NCBI RefSeq assembly: GCF_037975245.1
Contig: NC_092575.1
Location: forward strand, 24,725,841 to 24,789,840
Source of the DNA: Apostichopus japonicus
Lineage: Eukaryota > Echinodermata > Holothuroidea > Aspidochirotida > Stichopodidae
Length of the DNA stretch: 64,000 nt
Direction: 5' to 3'
The first letter of the stretch is position 1; every line of letters begins with the position of its first letter. The position numbers and the translations under genes are program-made. Below the pieces are notes generated by a model that had not been told where the DNA came from, ran no database searches, and was given only the letters and a program-made list of their open reading frames with translations. Of the stretch, positions 19,349 to 58,517 are shown piece by piece.

Positions 19349-19890
19349 GTCAGGCCTTAAAGTTTTAAAATCTTAGAATAAAGTGCAAAGCCTAACAGTT
19401 GTTGGTCAGTTTTAAATATGCAAATACATGTCAGGCCTCAGTTACTGTTCATGTGTTTTGGCTAATTAGTAATCATAATGAGGTAATAATTTACTGATCA
19501 TGACTTGTTTAGTATCCCTATGAATTTTCAGCATAATAAAATACTGATAGTTTCTGTTTCTTTTGTGTACAATATATGCATTTGTTCACCATTTCATGCT
19601 CTAAAATTGAAACAATTTCTTCAGTTTTCAAAAATTTCACAACATGATGATGTAGTACTACGCTTTATCTTTTCTAGAATATTAACTTTCTCCCAAGGGT
19701 CTCACGTGATAAGAATAAGAAGTTACAAGCCTGCAACTTTCAAAAACTGTAAAGTGTGAAGGGATTCTGTGTATGAAATTTTGGATGTAAGCCGGAATAC
19801 TTGACCTGATGCAGAATGTAAACCAAGTAGATTTTGGAGAAATCTTTTCGATTTTCTGTGATAGAACATTTTGAAGACACATCTTACAAA

Positions 19891-22800
19891 ATGTCTGAGA
19901 GGACAACTGAAGGTGTTCCTGCACTGAATGTTTATCAAGTTGCTGCCGATATCGGGAAAGACTTTGAAGGTTTGATTGAGAAATTTGGAAGCGATGGTTT
20001 CCGGGATATAATGCCCAAAATTATTAAGAGTCTTGAACATTTGGAGGAATCAGTTAAAAATGCCGAAACACTTCGTGAAAATGTCTGCAACTTGGAAGAA
20101 CAACTACACAGATTGGAGAAAGAATCTGAGCAAAAGGAGAAAGAAAACATCCAGTTGATTCAGGTTAGTGTAAAACAGATGTTATTGTGGTAATCCATTG
20201 TTTGATCAATGAATGTACAGTATCAAAAAAAGGCTGGATTTTTACTTTCTTGGGACCCAAAACAGGCTGTTAAGCAACCTAGGCAGCCATTGTACAGTAT
20301 TTAAATTGTAATTCAGATGAACAGTAAAATAATAATCAGTGTGTATGGAGTTTTCATGTATATTAACAGTGTGGGACATCATATAGATCTATTCATTGCT
20401 GTGTATTGATGTATAATTTGCTATATGTACAGCAGTACAGTAATTTTATGAAGATGGTTTTTAATATTTAAATCTACTGGGTCACAGTTTTCAAACAGTT
20501 TAACCTTTCCCTACCCCACCCCTTTTCCTTTCCCTTTCCCTTTCCCTTCCCCTACCCCTCCCCCATTTCTTTTCTTTCTAAGCTTATGTGCCAACTTCTT
20601 CCTCTTCCCCTTCCCTTCCCTTCCTCCTTTCTTTGCCTTCTAATTTTATGTGGGGAGGAGACTGGGCCTGGGTCCACCTGGCCGAAAGGTAAAATGTGAT
20701 CTGGTAGTTAATAACCATCCATTAGAAAATATAGAGGCCATGCATCATATACAGTATGTTTTGCATCTTCTCTGTGATATTAAATAGCCATATTGCCTTT
20801 CAAGAGTTCCATTTGATTGAGTTGTTGTGGTTTGAACTTGTAAATTCATAATATATAGAATTCATCTTTTGTGAAAGCAGAATTCTGCTGTCCGATTTAA
20901 AAAGTTCAATTTGATTTAGTTTGTCATGGTTTGAACTTGTAAATTCATAATATATAGAATTCATCTTTTGTGAAAGCAGAATTCTGCTGTCCGATTAAAT
21001 CACACACAAACTTGATGAATACATATATTTACTCTGGCAACATTTAATCAACCCTTTCAGTGCCTACAGGATTCCAATAACCTTGTTATATTGATGAAGT
21101 CTTTGAAGTATACAAAGATTGAGCATTTAATTAAAGTTTAGCTTATCAAATATTGACATGATGGACACAAGCTTGTTCTGTAAACGTAGCAAACGTCACT
21201 TTCGAGTTTGAGAGGGCCTACCTAGATCATGGACTTGCCTTTCATTTGAAATACATCTGTTTGACTTGCCCCCCTAGAGGGAATGTTTGAAGACAGTGAA
21301 TCATTGCATAAATTTACCCAACAGGAGTTTAATTTTGTCTGGGGTGTGGATGAATAAAGAGGGCAGCCTTTACCTATCTGTTGCTCCCTTGATATTTCAG
21401 ATGCCAAACCTAAATTGTACTATGGTATCATAATTTCAAAGCCTTTTTTGATTGGTTTTGGTTTGACAGGAGGCAGAAGAAGCTGCAGAAAAGAAGAGAG
21501 AGGATGATATATTTTGGATGAAAGAACTCTCTGAGTTACAGAATGAAAACTCTCTTCTCAGGGACCAATTATCAGAGAAGGACGGCATTGCTGTCAAAGA
21601 GAGAGGTTAGTTGCTCTATAATTTGTTGCTATTTGCTTGATTTTTTGTGGTCTGATTTTCTCAGCAACTGCTTTTAAAGTATATACATAGACTGTGTGCA
21701 GACTATGGATAAATGTCTACATTCTCATCAGGTAAGAGATGATTGGAAGAGGAGGGGGAGGGGGGTGGGGGGGTGGGGGATGGAAACTTTATCTTATTTG
21801 TAAACATATTGGTAAGGGCATAATTAGAGGAAATCTTCAATACATCAGTCAAACTTTCTTTCACTAAATAGGACTGTTGGGTGAGGGATCCGAAAGTAAA
21901 ACATTTTCCATAAAAGCATGACAGTACTGGCAATATAACAAAGCTGTACTTAGATTATACATTCCGTACCTCGAGAGTTGTTAAGAGGAGTAATAATAAT
22001 TATAATAAATGCAAATTTATATAGCGCCAATATCCAGAGGAAAACCAATGCTCAGTGGCGCTAGTGCTCAGGGAAGGCAGTCAAAAATAGATGGTTTTGA
22101 GTCTGTTTTTAGAAAATGTTAACGTTGGGTGCCGACTTGATGTGCAGTGGAAGTGAGTTCCAAAGAGTATGTTGGAATTGAAGAAATTTGAACAGAAATA
22201 AAAATAAAAATAATATTTCTACATATGAACAATATTTATAGATCCTGAGTCGGTCGGAGAGAAATTCTTTAATAAATTCACATTTGTTTTTGTCTGTTAA
22301 AAAGCGAAATTGAAACCGAAAGATTAGTTTGAAGCTGCTTTGACGTTTCATTTTACGACTGAGTGAACCTATGAAGTCAGCACACTTTATATGTCGGCAA
22401 ACAATCTTCAGTTTTGTTCATTTCATTTCATTTCATTTCCTCACCAGTCCAAGAACAGGAAGCAGTGAAGGTTCTGATGATCATGAGACAAACCGTTGAC
22501 AAACAACGTAATCAACTGAGAACGTTGGAAAAGGATGCTACCCAAAAAGCTGCAGACATTGATGCTGTAAGGAAACAGAGAAAACAACTATTGCTATAAG
22601 TGAACATTTGTGTAGCCATTGCAGTCATGACAGCCTGTGCTTGGTTTGGATATGTGTGTTGAACATACATTGATATATCACAAAGAAAGAAAGAAATGAC
22701 TAAAGGACATCTGTTTCATGTGGAATGCAGATGTCCGATGCATGTTGAGGTCAAGAAGCCTTGTTGTTATTGGTGGAGTTTCACCCTTTACAAGTCCTTG

Positions 22801-38600: not shown

Positions 38601-41350
38601 CGTCTCAATAATGGACAAAATATCTGACCACGACGCGGTCGGGCCACTTACCTTCGGTGACGATGAAATGGAATAGTACCGAGCCTGTAACTTGGGTAGA
38701 AGCTCCAACAGATGGTCCAGCGGTGGCTTACAGGACGGTAGATCCTCCAAGACGGCTACGATGTTACGGCTGTCTTTGATCACCCACTCATTGTATTCAT
38801 TCTAGACAGACGGACAGACAGACAGACAGACAGAAAAAAGAATGAAGAAGTGACCTTGGATTGTTTGAATGAAATAGAAGAACAAATTACAAATTGCTGC
38901 CATTTTGAACATTCACACATTAAAAATAAAACAAATCGTAAAGTGACAAGATCTGTCAAAATACACAAGTCCTTCAAAACGAGAGAGAATGGCCAATACA
39001 TAACAATTATTAGGCTCCAGCAGAAACAAGTTTTCCGACAACCGGTCCAGATTTTAAGTTACAGCAACTTGAGCAAAGTAATTCCGTATTAATTTTCAGA
39101 GATGGAGATTTTCTTGCCTTAGTCTGCACCATCAACTTGTCCTTTCAAACATTTGGTTTTTTTTTTTGGGGGGGGGGGGTAGGGGGAGGCCCTATTATCA
39201 CCAGATGATGAGCTAAACTATTGGTGCTCGACCCGATCCTAGTCGATGGGCTAAATCTTACCCTGCCTTCAGGAGAGGACGAGGAGAGTAATTGGAGTTG
39301 GTCTTTGTCCTTCTGTTCTGTAGCGTAGTCCATGATGTCCTTCAGGACATTTGTACGAGGGTTGGACGTAATGTCCACGTAGAATGACAGAGCTGTCCTG
39401 TAGGTGGTGGGACATGGGAATGGATGCTTCTTGCTAGCCTCTTCTGTAACAGAAATAAAGCAAAACCTTACTTGATTTTCTTCATTTATGAAAAAAGGTC
39501 ATCGTAGGCAGGGACTAATTTATCTGGTATTTGCATATGAAATGTTATAACAAAATATGCAAATTACTACACACATGCATAGATTTATAAGCTGTATTAC
39601 AAACACCGAAGCATGGCAACTTTGGTGTTTTATAAGAACCAGATAGGTAACAAAGATATGTCACATTGAAATTAAATAAACACACTTAAAAGAGTTACAA
39701 TAAATGCAAAAACATAGTTTAATTCTCGAGTTTTACCTTTGTAGTTATAAACAGAAATTCTGGCCCTTGCAGGCTACATTGACAAAATGACAGGTTTCAA
39801 TATTCGTACTATTTTCATGTTCTACTGCTACACTTTAGGTCATGCCCTCTTTTTATTTTTTTTAAACTACTTATATAAAACATTTACCACAGTAGTATTG
39901 GCAAGATTTCCATTCCCACACTTACCGTCAACATTCTTCAAGGAGAATACGGTATCCAAGTCAACTTCTAATAGTTTTCCTATCCTCTCCACCAAACCCT
40001 GGTCATTCATTGGATAAACAGCCACATGATCACCAGCCTCGTACCTGAACAGAGACAACAACAAAAATAACAAGAGTAAAGACAGATTGTTTTAAATTGA
40101 AAGACAAAATAAAACAAAACAACCAGTAAGAATTAAATGCTTCTTTCGTGGAAACGTAAATAGTTCCCATTTGGTCGATAGGAAGAATTGACACCTTCTA
40201 ACAAGGGGGGGGAGGGGGTCTCCTGTCATGTCCGAAATTCATAGAGGGCGCTGCCATATCAGTCCGTTCTATTTCTGTGAAAACTTGACAAGTTGCAGTC
40301 TATGACTGCAGATCATAAGTGAACCATGAGTTGATCGATACTAGAATATACAATTTCATTCATAATTATTGAAGACAAGATTTGTTGACACATAATTTTG
40401 AAAGTTCAAGTCGTATTACTTGTTTTTCAGCACTTAAAGTTGTATTTTCTAAATTGCACTGTAGGTAGAACCTTGAACTGGTAAATCGCCCAGTGCATCG
40501 GTATGCAAGTTCGTCGGGGCATGTTCGCAGCTTGTCAGAGCTGTTCACTTACACAGTACGGACGACGGACGTGAGGACCGGTATAACAACGCCCTCCATT
40601 AAACCAGAGAGAGCCCCATTTCCCAACAACCCTGGACATTGCACTGCATCAACGGCTACATGACGACCCATTACTGACCGAAGGAGCAGCTGATTGGCTT
40701 AAAACTGATATGCAATTGACAATTGTATTAACAATTGTATTAAGCATTTACACTGAATTGATTAAGAATTGATGATGAACTCACCTGAGTTTGGAATCTG
40801 TGATGTTGAATTCAATATGCATGCAGGAACGGTCTCCTCCTTTGTGAAGCTCACGGTTAACCTGGATGGGGGCTAGGAAAGGGTTCCTCGCATCATATGG
40901 TCTATCAATGAGTATAAAGAAGTACAACAGAACCCACAGATCAACACACTGTTCTTGATTGGTTACTCGTCTGGATGCTCCACAACGCTTAGATTACAAT
41001 AGCGATATAGCATACTTACAAATATGAAAAAGGATCGTAAAATAGGTAAATACAGACTTGATTGAGTGAGTGTGGGTCAATTTATCAACTATATCATGTG
41101 AACTATTGCTAGAGATATCATTAGTTTCATCTAGATGTTGAAACTGATGTACAATACTTGAACATATGACCCTCATTTTGTACTTATATTTATATGGCAT
41201 TTAGTTTTGTACATGACAGGAGTAAATAACATATTTTTAACCAGCCATGTGATCTACCATTAAAGTAAACAAATTTTGACAGTTCTCAAAATACAGTAAA
41301 ACAGACATGTCTTATACTATGGCCATGATAAATATCCAGGCGTATATGTA

Positions 41351-44300: not shown

Positions 44301-47300
44301 TAGTGACCTTTGACCTCGGTCAAAACTATAGGAACCTTGCACTCAATTCGTGGAAGCCACATACTAAGTACGAGATCCCACACGCATATTCTTAATACTT
44401 ACTTGGCATCATCATCTCCGAGACCTAGTTCAAAGATCCGCTCAGCTCCAAGCACTTCCAACTTCTTGTCTACAAACACGCCCATTTCGTTGTAATGTTC
44501 ATAAGTTTTGTTACCTAATCCAAATACCTGAGCAGGAAAAAAAATTAAATAAAAACTTGTTTAGACAAATATTAACTGCATTGCAAATCCGACTAAAGTA
44601 AAATTGGAAAAGATTGTTTTAATAAGTGATCTATGCTTTCTAACTTTGCACAGCCACTCATATCAAGTAAACTTATTAGATTGTACTTACAGCATATTTG
44701 ACCCCTGTCAGGTCAACTGACCCTTCCTGCAGCCACTCATATCATACTATTCTGACTGTACTTACAGCATATTTGACCCCTGTCAGGTCAACTGACCCTT
44801 CCTGCAGCCACTCATATCATACTATATGATTGTACTTACAGCATATTTGACCCGTCAGGTCAACTGACCCTTCCTGCAGCCACTCATATCATACTACCTG
44901 ACTGTACTTACAGCATATTTGACCCGTGTCAGGTCAACTGACCCTTCCTACAGCCACTCATATCATACTATTCTGACTGTACTTACAGCATATTTGACCC
45001 CTGTCAGGTCAACTGATCATTCCTGCAGCCACACATATCTGACTGTACTTATAGCATATTTGACCCCAGTCAGGTCAACTGACCCTTCCTGCAACCACTC
45101 ATATCACACTATCTGATTGTACTTACAGCATATTTGACCCCTGTCAGGTCAACTGACCCTTCCTGCAGCCACTCATATCATACTATCTGTACTGTACTTA
45201 CAGCATATTTGACCCCAGTCAGGTCAACTGACCCTTCCTGCAGCCACTCATATCATACTATTCTGACTGTACTTACAGCATATTTGACCCGTCAGGTCAA
45301 CTGACCCTTCCTGCAACCACTCATAACACACTATCTGACTGTACTTACAGCATATTTGACCCCTGTCAGGTCAACTGACCCTTCCTGCAACCACTCATAT
45401 CACACTATCTGATTGTACTTACAGCATATTTGACCCCAGTCAGGTCAACTGACCCTTCCTGCAGCCACTCATATCATACTATTCTGACTGTACTTACAGC
45501 ATATTTGACCCGTCAGGTCAACTGACCCTTCCTGCAACCACTCATAACACACTATCTGATTGTACTTACAGCATATTTGACCCGTCAGGTCAACTGACCC
45601 TTCCTGCAGCCACTCATATCATACTACCTGACTGTACTTACAGCATATTTGACCCGTGTCAGGTCAACTGACCCTTCCTACAGCCACTCATATCATACTA
45701 TTCTGACTGTACTTACAGCATATTTGACCCCTGTCAGGTCAACTGATCATTCCTGCAGCCACACATATCTGACTGTACTTATAGCATATTTGACCCCAGT
45801 CAGGTCAACTGACCCTTCCTGCAGCCACTCATTTTATACTATTCTGACTGTACTTACAGCATATTTGACCCCTGTCGGGTCAACTGACCCTACCTGCAGC
45901 CACTCATATTATACTATTCTGACTGTATTTACAGCTATTTGACCCCTGTTAGGTCAACTGACCCTTCCTGCAACCACTCATATCACACTATCTGACTGTA
46001 CTTACAGCATATTTGACCCCTGTCAGGTCAACTGACCCTTCCTGCAACCACTCATAACACACTATCTGACTGTACTTACAGCATATTTGACCCCTGTCAG
46101 GTCAACTGACCCTTCCTGCAACCACTCATATCACACTATCTGATTGTACTTACAGTATATTTTGACCCCTGTCAGGTCAACTGACCCTTCCTGCAGCCAC
46201 TCATATCATACTATATGATTGTACTTACAGCATATTTGACCCGTCAGGTCAACTGACCCTTCCTGCAGCCACTCATATCATACTACCTGACTGTACTTAC
46301 AGCATATTTGACCCGTGTCAGGTCAACTGACCCTTCCTACAGCCACTCATATCATACTATTCTGACTGTACTTACAGCATATTTGACCCCTGTCAGGTCA
46401 ACTGATCATTCCTGCAGCCACACATATCTGACTGTACTTACAGCATATTTGACCCCAGTCAGGTCAACTGACCCTTCCTGCAGCCACTCATATCATACTA
46501 TTCTGACTGTACTTACAGCATATTTGACCCCTGTCGGGTCAACTGACCCTACCTGCAGCCACTCATATTATACTATTCTGACTGTATTTACAGCTATTTG
46601 ACCCCTGTCAGGTCAACTGACCCTTCTTGCAACCACTCATATCACACTATCTGACTGTACTTACAGCATATTTGACCCCTGTCAGGTCAACTGACCCTTC
46701 CTGCAACCACTCATAACACACTATCTGACTGTACTTACAGCATATTTGACCCCTGTCAGGTCAACTGACCGTTACTGCAACCACTCATATCACACTATCT
46801 GACTGTACTTACAGCATATTTGACCCCTGTCAGGTCAACTGACCCTTTCTGCAACCACTCATATCACACTATCTGATTGTACTTACAGCATATTTGACCC
46901 CTGTCAGGTCAACTGACCCTTCCTGCAGCCACTCATATCATACTATCTGTACTGTACTTACAGCATATTTGACCCCAGTCAGGTCAACTGACCCTTCCTG
47001 CAGCCACTCATATCATACTATTCTGACTGTACTTACAGCATATTTGACCCGTCAGGTCAACTGACCCTTCCTGCAACCACTCATAACACACTATCTGACT
47101 GTACTTACAGCATATTTGACCCCTGTTAGGTCAACTGACCCTTCCTGCAACCACTCATATCACACTATCTGATTGTACTTACAGCATATTTGACACCAGT
47201 CAGGTCAACTGACCCTTCCTGCAGCCACTCATATCATACTATTCTGACTGTACTTACAGCATATTTGACCCGTCAGGTCAACTGACCCTTCCTGCAACCA

Positions 47301-50300
47301 CTCATAACACACTATCTGATTGTACTTACAGCATATTTGACCCCAGTCAGGTCAACTGACCCTTCCTGCAGCCACTCATATCATACTATTCTGACTGTAC
47401 TTACAGCATATTTGACCCGTCAGGTCAACTGACCCTTCCTGCAACCACTCATAACACACTATCTGACTGTACTTACAGCATATTTGACCCCTGTCAGGTC
47501 AACTGACCGTTACTGCAACCACTCATATCACACTATCTGACTGTACTTACAGCATATTTGACCCCTGTCAGGTCAACTGACCCTTCCTGCAACCACTCAT
47601 AACACACTATCTGACTGTACTTACAGCATATTTGACCCCAGTCAGGTCAACTGACCCTTCCTGCAGCCACTCATATCATACTATTCTGACTGTACTTACA
47701 GCATATTTGACCCCAGTCAGGTCAACTGACCCTTCCTGCAGCCACTCATATCATACTATTCTGACTGTACTTACAGCATATTTGACCCCTGTCGGGTCAA
47801 CTGACCCTACCTGCAGCCACCCCTCTTATACTATTCTGACTGTATTTACAGCTATTTGACCCCTGTTAGGTCAACTGACCCTTCTTGCAACCACTCATAT
47901 CACACTATCTGACTGTACTTACAGCATATTTGAACCCTGTCAGGTCAACTGACCCTTCCTGCAACCACTCATAACACACTATCTGACTGTACTTACAGCA
48001 TATTTGACCCCTGTCAGGTCAACTGACCGTTACTGCAACCACTCATATCACACTATCTGACTGTACTTACAGCATATTTGACCCCAGTCAGGTCAACCGA
48101 CCCTTCCTGCAGCCACTCATATTATACTATTCTGACTGTATTTACAGCTATTTGACCCCTGTCATGTCAACTGACCCTTCCTGCAACCACTCATATCACA
48201 CTACCTGACTGTACTTACAGCATATTTGACCCCTGTCAGGTCAACTGACCCTTCCTGCAACCACTCATATCATACTATCTGACTGTACTTACAGCATATT
48301 TGACCCCCGTCAGGTCAACTGACCCTTCCTGCAGCCATTCATAGAATTCCTGAGAGTTGTCTGTAGGGTCCCCTTCGCCGTAGGTCGCCATACAGAAGAT
48401 AGCCATAGAATTCTCGATCTCACTCAGTTGGGGTAAGTCTTCCTGTTGGTTGAAAATAGACACAAGAAAGTTTCAATCCCTATATTTAGGTACAGATGCT
48501 TCATACCTTCATTACTATGAAAGCCTTTATTGATTGTATCCATTGTAAGGGGTGGGAGTTGGTGGTGGGGGGGTAGTGTTATAGGTCTTATATGTTAAGG
48601 TTATCTATTTTTTTGGGGGGTGGAGGGGTAACTCTTTTATAGGTGTTAAGGTTATCTACTTTCTTTGATGGGAGTACTCTATTCGATTAAGCCCAAAAGG
48701 GTTTCTTAGTTTACTTCCTTTCACATTTTTTACTTATTTGCAGTTATATTGTCTTGTTCACCTTGTTATACTATGTGATAAAACAAATAATAGTAATAAT
48801 CCTTTACTCTGATAAGCTTAGACTTCTACTATGATCAAGGCCTTAGACATCACATATTTGATGACCTCTAGAACTTGGCTTGTTCACACCTTATTGAAGC
48901 AATTCTAAACAAGGAAGAATTTTTGAATTCTTCTCAAAGGGAAGTATACTGTAGGTGAGCCAACAGTGGCAGAGAAATGAAGGATGGGAGGGGAGGGGAG
49001 GAGGGAGGGGGACTGATAAGGAATGTGCAAGTCTGGAACTCTGGATGAGTCACTTGAATAACCCACCAGAACCAGCAAGTTTTTGCTTCGGAAAATGTGA
49101 AAAGATTGTGAACATTTTAAAGCTCCGGGTGATTGAATACCCACAACACACAAAACAAAGCAAAATTTATTGATGATATGAAGGTTCACCTGTCAGACAT
49201 TCTTTGCTTAAACTGAAGTTGAACTATTCAAAGATACCAATACCTCAATAGTGTCTGATGTCTCTAGTGTGTGAAAACAAAAAAAGGATCGGACAACTGC
49301 CAAAAAATTCAACCTTTTACCAATGAGTCTTTGTCTAACCCTTTGAAATGGTAAAAGTCACTTGTGAAATATTTATGTAATGAAATTACATTCCAAGTGG
49401 TATTTACTTAAATATAAGTCAGGCTTTTAAATAAATGTTTGTAAATGTATTTTTCTACTTTGAAAAACTAAGTGCACAGCAAACATGTGAGGTAAGTCCT
49501 TGTAAAACTAGAAACACTGCATCTGCAATGCAAGTACTGTCATTAAAGCCTGGTGTTCTGGTGCATATATACAACACTAGTGCAACTTGAAAGTCTCAAT
49601 ACCTGTTTGCTGATCAATTTCGGAAAAACAAACTTCCGAAGCAGATCATTTAATGTTTCTTATTCTAAATGCACTCTGACCAGGTGCGTTTAATGGAGAA
49701 AAGCTGTCACAATCGAAAGAAATTTATTTTCTGTTGCCCTTATGGTGCGAAAAGATTTACCGTAAAATGACTGCGGCCGCCCATATCAACATGTTCATTT
49801 ACATAAATGTAACCTATGTAAATACTTGTATCGTCCACTTTTTTTACCCAATTTCACAAAGGACACATCTGAAAACACCTGTTTATTCCTTCCTTAGACC
49901 AAAAGAAAGATATTATTCAAGAGAATGGACCAGACTAGCCACGAAAGTGAAAGTAAGTCCTATAGGCCTTATGGTCATAAACAAAACAGAGAGATTTGAT
50001 TGGCACATGATCTGTTGGGGCAGGGCTTGCAAATTTTGATTGAAGTTTGTAGAATCCGGGACTCGTTAAAAAAACTGGCAAATTTTATTCAGCTCAAAAT
50101 GTTTACCTTCAGATAACTCAATAAAAATAATGATTGTTCATATGAAAATAGCATAGAACGGTGTTATTTTCACACTGAGCTTTTAGGGCAGTGAGCTGGA
50201 AAAGTCAAAGTTAAAATTTGGCAAACACACATTGAGACACATTGAGTTAATAGTAGTCCCACAGTGTGGCACACTGGGCTAGGGAGTCACACCTATACAA

Positions 50301-56300: not shown

Positions 56301-58517
56301 GTACGCACTACACTGTACATCTACACACTAAGGTACAGTACTATTGCACGACAATAAATTTAGGTCCATTAGTCCAACAAGAATCTGTGCTATGATGTTG
56401 AAGTACGATGAATAGCATCACAAACTTACAGAAAATAGCTCTATACTGTGCATGCCGTGTGAAGAGAACTTTTGAAGGAAAGGTAAACAACCCAGTCCTC
56501 CCACCTAGCCTTAAACTATCAATCAATCAACACAACCAGTTACAGTTTTAAGGTCTGGGTTGTTAATAACATAGATTTCCTTACTTGGCAACTGATGAAT
56601 TGCATCCATGGAGTGGACAGTTGTTATTGTCACAGACAATTTAATCTTGGGGTAATTAACTTAAGCCTGTCAGGTCTGAAACATGAGTAACTTCACTTTG
56701 AATCATCTCATTTCATACATTTTGATTGCACAGTATATTATAATCTGCAGTAAAATTACATTTGTCAGACTTCCACTTTCACACATAAATACCATACACT
56801 ATGACAACTGTATTACTTATTGGATTTCCTCCCTAGATTAGTTACATTACCAAATTACATTACCATACTTCCACTAACCCAATTCATGATGACTAGTATA
56901 ACAAACTATGACAACTGATCACTTACAGATATCCTCCCCAGATAAGTTTTCACCTAGTCTTGCGTATATATGTAGTACAAGATTCTTTGGTGAGGAGGTG
57001 GGGGGAGGGGGATGGGTGAGGGGGATGGGTGAGGGGCATGAATGAGAAGGTGGGTGAGGGGATATGGAGTAAGAGATATTACCTGATCAAGACACAAAAT
57101 GTTAGATTCATCAGGCAATACTGTATACTGTATGCAATAGGAATACTGTAATTGGTTTTTAAGCTCAAAATGTGTGGTTGAGTTCATTAATGTATGACAT
57201 TCACTTCTGGTACTAGTCTTTTGTAAAGTACAGTACTTTACTGAATCAAGTTTCAGTTCTCACCAAACCCACTCAAAATAACTTGAAGGATAAACCATGC
57301 AAAGTCTATGCAGCTCTTTGGGTCTTACCAAAAAAAATAACCCCAAAAACCAACAATGCAAAATCGGTGTTGAAGTCTCTTTGTTTGAAACATTATGTAA
57401 ATAAGGTCTTCAGGATTTTGCATAACGAAACCCAGTTCTGCTTCTTGCATGCAGATCACTAGTACATAAGGCTACTAGACTTTGCACAGGTCTATAGGTT
57501 CTATTAACTGGTTGTACAGTAGATTTTCACAGTAGGAATGTTTTTTAATTTTTTATCCATTTCATAAATTTTTGGTAATTTCTGAGGATAGTGAATTGAT
57601 GCTGTATTGTAAGGAACATTCTTTTCTTAACATTGAAATTGTATAAATACTGTTAAGAATATTAAAATTCAAATCCCTGATTGAGTCAGTACATATAGTA
57701 CAATACTACTACATGTTATGAACAGTAACATGCACAGCATATAGCTACATGACATGCTGACAACCCCTCCATGAGTTTACCTGAGAACAGAGACCATATT
57801 GATTAATAATAATTATACGGTCTGCTACTGTATACTAGATAACAATAAGTCAAACCTAACTATGTCCTCACCTAAGTATTAATAATCCGATAGTATGAGA
57901 ATTTCATTACTGCTATAAAGTATAGGTTCAATACATCTTAACACCGTCCAAGGACATAACTTTGATACAGAAGAACGTGTACAAAAACCTTTAGAGTTGG
58001 TTTGAAATGCTGCGACATGTGTATTAAAACTTTACCTGCAGGTTAGTCCATGATCATGATACATCACACATAGATGATCTTCAGATTTCTTTGTAATCCC
58101 ATTAACTTGTTAGAGTTATAAAATTCTAATAAACAGTTATTATTCTCTCTATTCAGGTCATAATCGTTGTAAATTTTAACTTCTACTTTTTGATTCAATT
58201 GCAACTATGACCTGTGACATACTGCACATTTGCCTGGCTTCTACCTGGCTTTAAGAGCAGTAACGTACAGACACGTCACAAGCTCTCGACTACAAGCTAA
58301 GCTGGGCGCAAACTTACGTTACTTTCAGGGCTCCTATATCGATTGAGTTCTGCTCGTTTCTCCCTCTGATGAAGAACCAATAGACGCCGATGGTGAGGCT
58401 GATACCCAGCAGGAATATGTCCATCGTCCCTATCAGTGGCTCTGAGGTACCCATGTCTTCAACGACTTCTGCCGGCGGTGGAACAACAGAATCTGCAGAT
58501 ACTCCCAAGATGTTCAT
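35601..58517 (-). CDS. POR: NADPH-cytochrome P450 reductase (15 coding exons)
   Basis: Exons from start to stop are 58517-58318, 54432-54352, 51622-51565, 51280-51152, 48442-48293, 44527-44403, 43387-43298, 41842-41741, 40901-40785, 40044-39926, 39443-39262, 38801-38652, 38146-37879, 36989-36761 and 35745-35601. Every junction is GT-AG and in phase; the product is 714 residues. POR is an ER-membrane diflavin enzyme passing electrons from NADPH through FAD and FMN to microsomal P450s. Visible landmarks are the N-terminal membrane anchor (about 32-50), FMN loop YGSQTGTAEEF (from 121), MATYGEGDPTDN (174-185), FGLGNKTYEHYN, FAD motifs RYYSISSS (492-499) and GVAT (526-529), the NADPH loop GPGTGLAPF (569-577), YVCGDARNMA and terminal DVWS with the FAD-stacking Trp (713). 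The anchor-to-FMN linker is longer than in human (680 aa total) and uses two tiny exons, the least certain part. The intron after exon 5 holds a tandem array copied from that exon's end. Confidence 0.96.
37325..37465. repeat. Near-perfect 60 bp fold-back (hairpin) element
   Basis: The left arm 37325-37384 and right arm 37406-37465 are inverted copies matching at 58 of 60 positions, with a 21-base loop that itself repeats part of the arm (gtcattt, cacttgtcatt). The arm contains ctagcaggatcttcttcaaa. It lies in the intron before the last-but-one POR exon. Such near-identity suggests recent insertion or ongoing arm correction. No coding capacity. Confidence 0.8.
38805..38834. repeat. (GACA)n microsatellite abutting a POR splice acceptor
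   Basis: On the transcribed (minus) strand this is a TGTC repeat running straight into gtctgtctag, the acceptor of the POR exon 38801-38652. The repeat therefore serves as the polypyrimidine tract of this exon. Confidence 0.8.
41350..41392 (+). repeat. (TGTC)n microsatellite
   Basis: About ten uninterrupted tgtc units, ending in ctatctata, inside a POR intron and well away from any splice site. Confidence 0.85.
42201..42298 (+). repeat. ~15 bp C-rich tandem repeat
   Basis: Six degenerate units of the type CCCCAACACTTAAC occur in succession within a POR intron. The spacing varies by one or two C residues. Confidence 0.75.
42976..43133 (+). mobile_element. tRNA-derived SINE
   Basis: A pol III A-box-like start (tatggtgcagtgggttaa, 42979-42996) is followed about 55 bases later by a B-box-like GGTTCAGTTCC (43035-43045). 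The unit ends in an A-tract (43123-43133). This is the architecture of a tRNA-related SINE head, unrelated body and A-tail. It lies in a POR intron on the strand opposite to POR. No target duplication is evident. Confidence 0.55.
44651..48343 (-). repeat. 50-copy minisatellite built from a POR exon end plus its 5' splice site
   Basis: The average unit is 74 bp. On the POR sense strand each unit reads as codons for YEWLQEGSVDLTGVKYA (residues 190-206), then GTAAGTACAG and about 15 more intron bases. The rightmost copy is the genuine end of POR exon 48442-48293; 49 further copies follow downstream in the intron. By counting the motif at the donor I find 44 units with intact GTAAGTAC, four with GTAAATAC (near 45934, 46592, 47851, 48147) and two with GT changed to AT (near 45053 and 45783). 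At least eight copies lack two bases in the former coding part. The intronic part gives an in-frame stop soon after the donor. Confidence 0.93.
49594..50132 (-). repeat. Interspersed repeat, copy B (inverted relative to 10.8-11.3 kb)
   Basis: The reverse complement aligns with 10757-11290 along nearly its full length, with several small indels. It sits in the POR intron between exons 51152-51280 and 48293-48442. The 101-codon plus-strand frame inside it is similar to the frame in copy A but is broken differently, so neither is a likely gene. Confidence 0.65.
53668..53714 (+). repeat. Three-copy 16 bp tandem repeat
   Basis: Three units of tttacgtatgtgataa with minor differences lie in a POR intron. 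The surrounding DNA (about 52.5-60 kb) is unusually rich in tacagta/tactgta words. Confidence 0.7.
56996..57062 (+). repeat. G-rich tandem tract in POR intron 1
   Basis: Repeated ggggatgggtga units with several runs of three to six G form a plausible G-quadruplex on the strand opposite the POR transcript. Confidence 0.6.

Follow-up and report, generated by a model that had tools for sequence, protein, structure and literature searches.

A 64,000-nucleotide window of the sea cucumber Apostichopus japonicus genome (contig NC_092575.1, positions 24,725,841 to 24,789,840; coordinates below are those of the window) carries on its minus strand the gene for NADPH-cytochrome P450 reductase (POR), one intron of which is filled with 49 head-to-tail copies of the exon-intron junction that opens it. 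The array is a clean example of an already described kind of element, the mirage-type minisatellite; mirages are tandem repeats of exon-intron boundaries that were named in amphioxus Adh3 and then reported in other genes (PMC3087553, PMC3902484). Most likely, the junction was duplicated between short chance repeats, expanded block by block, and is spliced out at the first donor, with copies that have no selected function. The array is probably tolerated since splicing takes the first donor.

Anatomy of the array and its host gene

The host intron (44528-48292, minus strand, 3765 nucleotides, nt) separates a POR exon of 150 nt in phase 0 (48293-48442, minus strand, EDLPQLSEIENSMAIFCMATYGEGDPTDNSQEFYEWLQEGSVDLTGVKYA), whose 3' end founded the array, from the next exon of 125 nt, which is not a multiple of three (44403-44527, minus strand, VFGLGNKTYEHYNEMGVFVDKKLEVLGAERIFELGLGDDDA); the array takes up 3642 nt (97%) of this intron. 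Tandem Repeats Finder (TRF) detects the repeat at 44682-48343 with a period of 74, 49.8 copies, 91% matches and a score of 5926, and unit-by-unit cutting at an internal anchor yields 50 units plus a 12-nt partial. Specifically, unit 0 (48270-48343, minus strand) consists of the genuine exon end (51 nt) and the initial 23 intron bases and includes the genuine donor GTAAGTAC (48292-48285, minus strand); the 49 intronic copies follow at 44663-48269 on the same strand; and the terminal partial unit TATGAGTGGCTG lies at 44651-44662, also on the minus strand. The segmentation thus returns the limits 44651-48343 that the first-pass annotation had assigned to a POR exon end and 5' splice site amplified to 49 intronic copies. 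That annotation was right about the genuine exon end and one base off about the donor, which it put at 48293: this is the last exon base, and the GT occupies 48292-48291.

The 74-nt unit joins 51 exon nt (17 codons, YEWLQEGSVDLTGVKYA) to GTAAGTAC and 15 further intron bases, so that its intron portion measures 23 bases in total. The intronic copies are 66-75 nt long, apart from the last one, which has 79 nt; their identity to unit 0 is 84-96% (mean 92%), and 34 distinct sequences are present among the 50 units. At donor positions +1 to +8, 43 of the 49 copies read exactly GTAAGTAC, four read GTAAATAC, and two read ATAAGTAC and lack the GT. The near-identical donors said to stand in a field behind the exon end are therefore real, and the units carry the splice donor of the exon, as in the variable number tandem repeat (VNTR) of human ABCA7. 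As in a mirage, the repeat unit runs across the exon-intron boundary (all 49 copies align to the 51 + 23 nt reference unit), the genuine boundary stands at one end of the array as unit 0, and the gene is otherwise intact, with POR coding sequence along its full length. Across 44660-48343, motifs resembling nuclear-receptor half-sites (GGGTCA, AGGTCA, TGACCT, TGACCC) are also matched 140 times in the array, and the coding strand shows a strong G-over-C skew (0.41); both properties are carried along in the copied sequence.

The array is far beyond chance. Searches of the whole assembly (671,581,487 bases, 35 contigs), which score the best candidates only, place all 50 matches listed for the 74-nt unit inside the array, and of the 23 matches listed for the exon at 48442-48293, one is its own locus and 22 fall within the array. 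That the array was invented or miscounted during assembly is hardly credible: tandem arrays are notoriously prone to assembly errors, but the units comprise many distinct sequences, and the source assembly is reported to derive from 64x HiFi reads with a mean of 14.7 kb, as against 3.7 kb for the array (PMC10344927). A false array is unlikely because the reads are about four times as long as the array.

The identity of the host gene rests on the exon-joined protein, which matches PDB entry 9ef0 (E = 5e-273) over residues 19-682 of 682, nearly the full length of POR. Exon matches to a human POR probe run from 51280 to 35604, and additional N-terminal and linker exons were placed by reading-frame inspection, giving a coding sequence on the minus strand with an approximate extent of 35601-58517, a proposed first ATG at 58517 and a stop at 35603-35601. 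The exon that founded the array falls within a Flavodoxin_1 match (48293-48445, E 5.5e-8). A general tendency of POR exon ends to amplify was considered and rejected: in a BLAST comparison of 12 POR exons against the window, which did not cover the exons of the N terminus at about 58.5 and 51.6 kb, the exon at 48442-48293 alone has an amplified end, and the extra matches otherwise comprise a TGTC microsatellite and one match of 16 nt. Elsewhere in the gene, the polypyrimidine tract at 38804-38834, before the POR exon starting at about 38801, is a (TGTC)n microsatellite that reaches the acceptor TCTAG; serving as the polypyrimidine tract, it could affect that splice site through its length.

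Origin and growth of the array

The proposed route begins with an ancestral short intron that would by chance have held TATGAGTGGCTG at a distance of about 74-79 nt behind the exon sequence TATGAATGGCTG; slippage or unequal exchange between the two would have duplicated the exon end together with its donor. The terminal partial unit TATGAGTGGCTG is proposed to be the remnant of this chance intronic near-repeat, which matches the exonic TATGAATGGCTG at 11 of 12 positions (the exon reads TATGAATGGCTGCAGG, and the intron downstream of the last donor reads TATGAGTGGCTGTGCA). If two short repeats bounded the duplication, the expected order is exon repeat, hybrids, intronic repeat, and the hybrid junctions of the copies fit it: at unit position 6 all 49 copies have the G of the terminal partial, followed by exon-type sequence, and the A is found in the exon alone. 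When the flank was shuffled 400 times, 4 of the shuffled sequences attained a match of 11 of 12, and a repeat of this quality was present at none of the eight other exon ends tested.

The pattern of the units shows that the duplicate then expanded to 49 copies, at least partly via duplication of multi-unit blocks, and that the copies subsequently diverged. Units 13-19 and 37-43 form a seven-unit block repeat (at least 97% match), and adjacency brings no extra similarity, since neighbouring units and average pairs both have an identity of 0.911. The block repeat and the occurrence of identical units correspond to the concerted evolution, or block turnover, of mirages.

Comparable minisatellites are common in the genome. 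In 20 random 10-kb stretches, 17 minisatellite arrays (period 30-300 bp, at least three copies) cover 7.7% of the bases, and one of them (L022:297-5158), with a 34-bp unit repeated about 142 times, is longer than the POR array. Scaled to the genome, this amounts, as a rough inference, to some 57,000 such arrays. Assuming the reported 19,828 genes (PMC10344927), eight introns per gene and blind placement, an exon boundary would fall within about 3% of founding units and, with the same roughness, hundreds to a couple of thousand boundary-spanning arrays would arise before selection. Given how common minisatellites are, junction-spanning arrays are expected without selection. Elsewhere in the window, a plus-strand reading frame at 19831-20193 contains a RILP homology 1 domain (E 1.7e-21) and marks a neighbouring RILP-like gene, downstream of whose exon lies a 99-bp tandem duplication (two copies, 93%) at 20798-20996.

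Predicted splicing outcome and constraint on the copies

When spliced products are assembled in silico from all 50 donors in turn, the genuine donor gives an open product and each of the 49 copied donors leads to a stop after V-S-T-V-R, five codons in. Alternative exon ends, one of the roles first suggested for the copies, would be unproductive because every copied donor meets this stop. The spliceosome would mostly choose the first donor (48292) to go with the upstream acceptor, and by this choice the array is proposed to leave with the intron and the mRNA to be normal; removal by splicing would be what makes the copies tolerable. Minor leakage to the nearest copied donors would add about 74n nt with an in-frame stop, and the resulting transcripts would be removed by nonsense-mediated decay.

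A leak of this kind is central to an alternative modelled on ABCA7, which is considered unlikely: the array, although unselected, would mildly lower POR output according to copy number, via leakage to copied donors and frameshifting skips of the next, 125-nt exon. The exact match of 43 copied donors to the genuine one at +1 to +8 and the stop met from every alternative donor would favour such an outcome, as would the ABCA7 report, in which an isoform retaining one repeat unit makes up about 2% of transcripts and a longer VNTR goes with more exon-19 skipping (a 3.2-fold increase between length extremes) and with lower expression (PMC5954066). In the same report, however, single-unit retention is constant across VNTR lengths, and exon skipping is tentatively attributed to factor motifs in the sequence of that particular VNTR. 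That POR output is partly set by a copy-number-variable donor field, with copied donors and skipping of the 125-nt exon committing more or fewer transcripts to decay according to array length, appears quite improbable; if true, P450 capacity would differ heritably, and the intron would be a natural titration of spliceosome choice among dozens of identical donors. The array may possibly compete for U1 or exert a minor effect on splicing.

It is very doubtful that the copies are kept by selection as a donor field for U1 binding, be it for competition, telescripting or the control of splicing. The stretch does hold 44 occurrences of GTAAGTAC, the genuine donor included, but much of the unit is at least as well conserved as the donor sites. 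Substitution events inferred on a tree of the array units number two in the six sites of the donor hexamer, and 29 of 69 six-base windows (its own counted) show as few or fewer; for the nine-base donor, 24 of 66 windows are as low or lower on events, and when diversity serves as a cruder yardstick, the donor is equalled by 20 of 73 nine-column windows, its own counted. Donor-specific conservation is consequently rejected, and with it falls the support for the function that the first-pass annotation had envisaged for the donor field. Moreover, one of the 17 random genome arrays is likewise rich in donor motifs, with 28 GTRAGT on one strand in about 17 units of a 60-bp period (L031:1938-2934). 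As for U1 protection from premature cleavage, also raised at the outset, AATAAA is absent from the whole intron and its only ATTAAA lies at 44623, beyond the array, which therefore contains neither poly(A) hexamer; local telescripting has little to act on and, within the array, is rejected.

Nor do the copies behave as coding sequence. Events at codon positions one, two and three number 13, 4 and 12, without an excess at the third position over the first, and, among the 49 copies, 9 contain stops, 13 are frameshifted, 6 are missense and 21 encode the exact peptide; a coding function is rejected on the grounds of the stops, the frameshifts and the missing third-position excess. The same copies could in principle supply cassette mini-exons, as (T/C)TGCAG stands upstream of the donor in most units and 36-nt mini-exons coding for EGSVDLTGVKYA could join the FMN domain in frame. 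The pairing of TGCAG with GTAAGTAC recurs in 40 of the 49 copies, and 25 of them have an open, in-frame mini-exon of 36 nt that encodes EGSVDLTGVKYA or a close variant. The 44 (T/C)TGCAG sites, however, lack a pyrimidine tract, with a mean pyrimidine fraction of 0.45 at -20 to -5 (range 0.31-0.50), as against 0.69-1.0 at the five POR acceptors compared, two of which were placed one or two bases off; stops interrupt six of the 36-nt mini-exons, and the mini-exon is a frameshifting 34 nt in eight copies and 37 nt in one. Cassette use is accordingly regarded as extremely improbable.

Several points weigh against a mirage-type minisatellite without function or effect. The exon-derived part of the unit has accumulated 29 events in 51 sites and the more variable intronic tail behind the donor 17 in 17, and second codon positions are the least changed (4 of the 29 events); this low change in the exon part and at second positions could be read as weak constraint or as conversion from the exon. 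The terminal TATGAGTGGCTG could be a mere truncated copy and not the ancestral repeat, and the tail of the last unit is unlike the tails of the other units. Use of the first donor is itself deduced from the DNA, and the assumption of no effect may be wrong because the repeat length in ABCA7 tracks next-exon splicing and expression.

Since 43 copied donors are identical to the genuine one, the intron offers a natural test of how a 5' splice site is selected by means other than its sequence, for which transcription order and closeness to the acceptor are candidates. If copy number varies in farmed stock, the array would also be a ready marker.

Relation to known exon-boundary repeats

The first-pass annotation knew of no described case with such a layout; precedents exist in the mirages of amphioxus (PMC3087553, PMC3902484) and in the ABCA7 VNTR of human (PMC5954066). 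Amphioxus mirages are reported in Adh3, globins and troponin C, and repeats in PGBD5 have been likened to them (PMC3087553, PMC3902484); many of their units keep splice signals, though normal splicing is inferred from reverse transcription PCR and Adh3 data (PMC3087553). The POR array resembles them as a set of minisatellite-like tandem copies of an exon-intron boundary with many splice signals kept. It differs in belonging to a sea cucumber, hence to a different phylum from the lancelets of the reported cases, although the taxon is not treated as defining a mirage. In size, its 49 copies of 74 nt compare with 3 and 6 units of 150-160 bp on the two haplotypes of the globin gene BflGb6 and with Adh3 mirage units of 10-72 bp, the POR array being known from the DNA of one haplotype. 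At the level of titles and the beginnings of abstracts, no echinoderm exon-boundary minisatellite was found in the open-licence literature.

The ABCA7 VNTR, located in intron 18, begins at the exon-18 donor, and its unit starts with the donor GT (PMC5954066). Similarly, the POR array starts at the donor of its exon and copies the donor GT; in ABCA7, splicing from the copied donor a unit further on shifts the reading frame of the transcript, as it would in POR. In contrast to the POR unit, that of ABCA7 spans 25 bp, lies in a C-rich region and, as described, does not include exon sequence. Furthermore, the ABCA7 VNTR is polymorphic, and its effects on both exon skipping and expression have been measured.

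Lastly, potato offers a documented case of intron gain in which the duplicated stretch ran over an intron-exon boundary (PMC4974935). The POR array is likewise a tandem duplication over such a boundary in which splice signals are copied; as reported, the potato duplicate made a new intron, while the POR copies remain within one intron and a new one is not evident. Next to the mirages of lancelets and the single human gene, the POR array adds an echinoderm and a core enzyme gene to the range of exon-boundary minisatellites.

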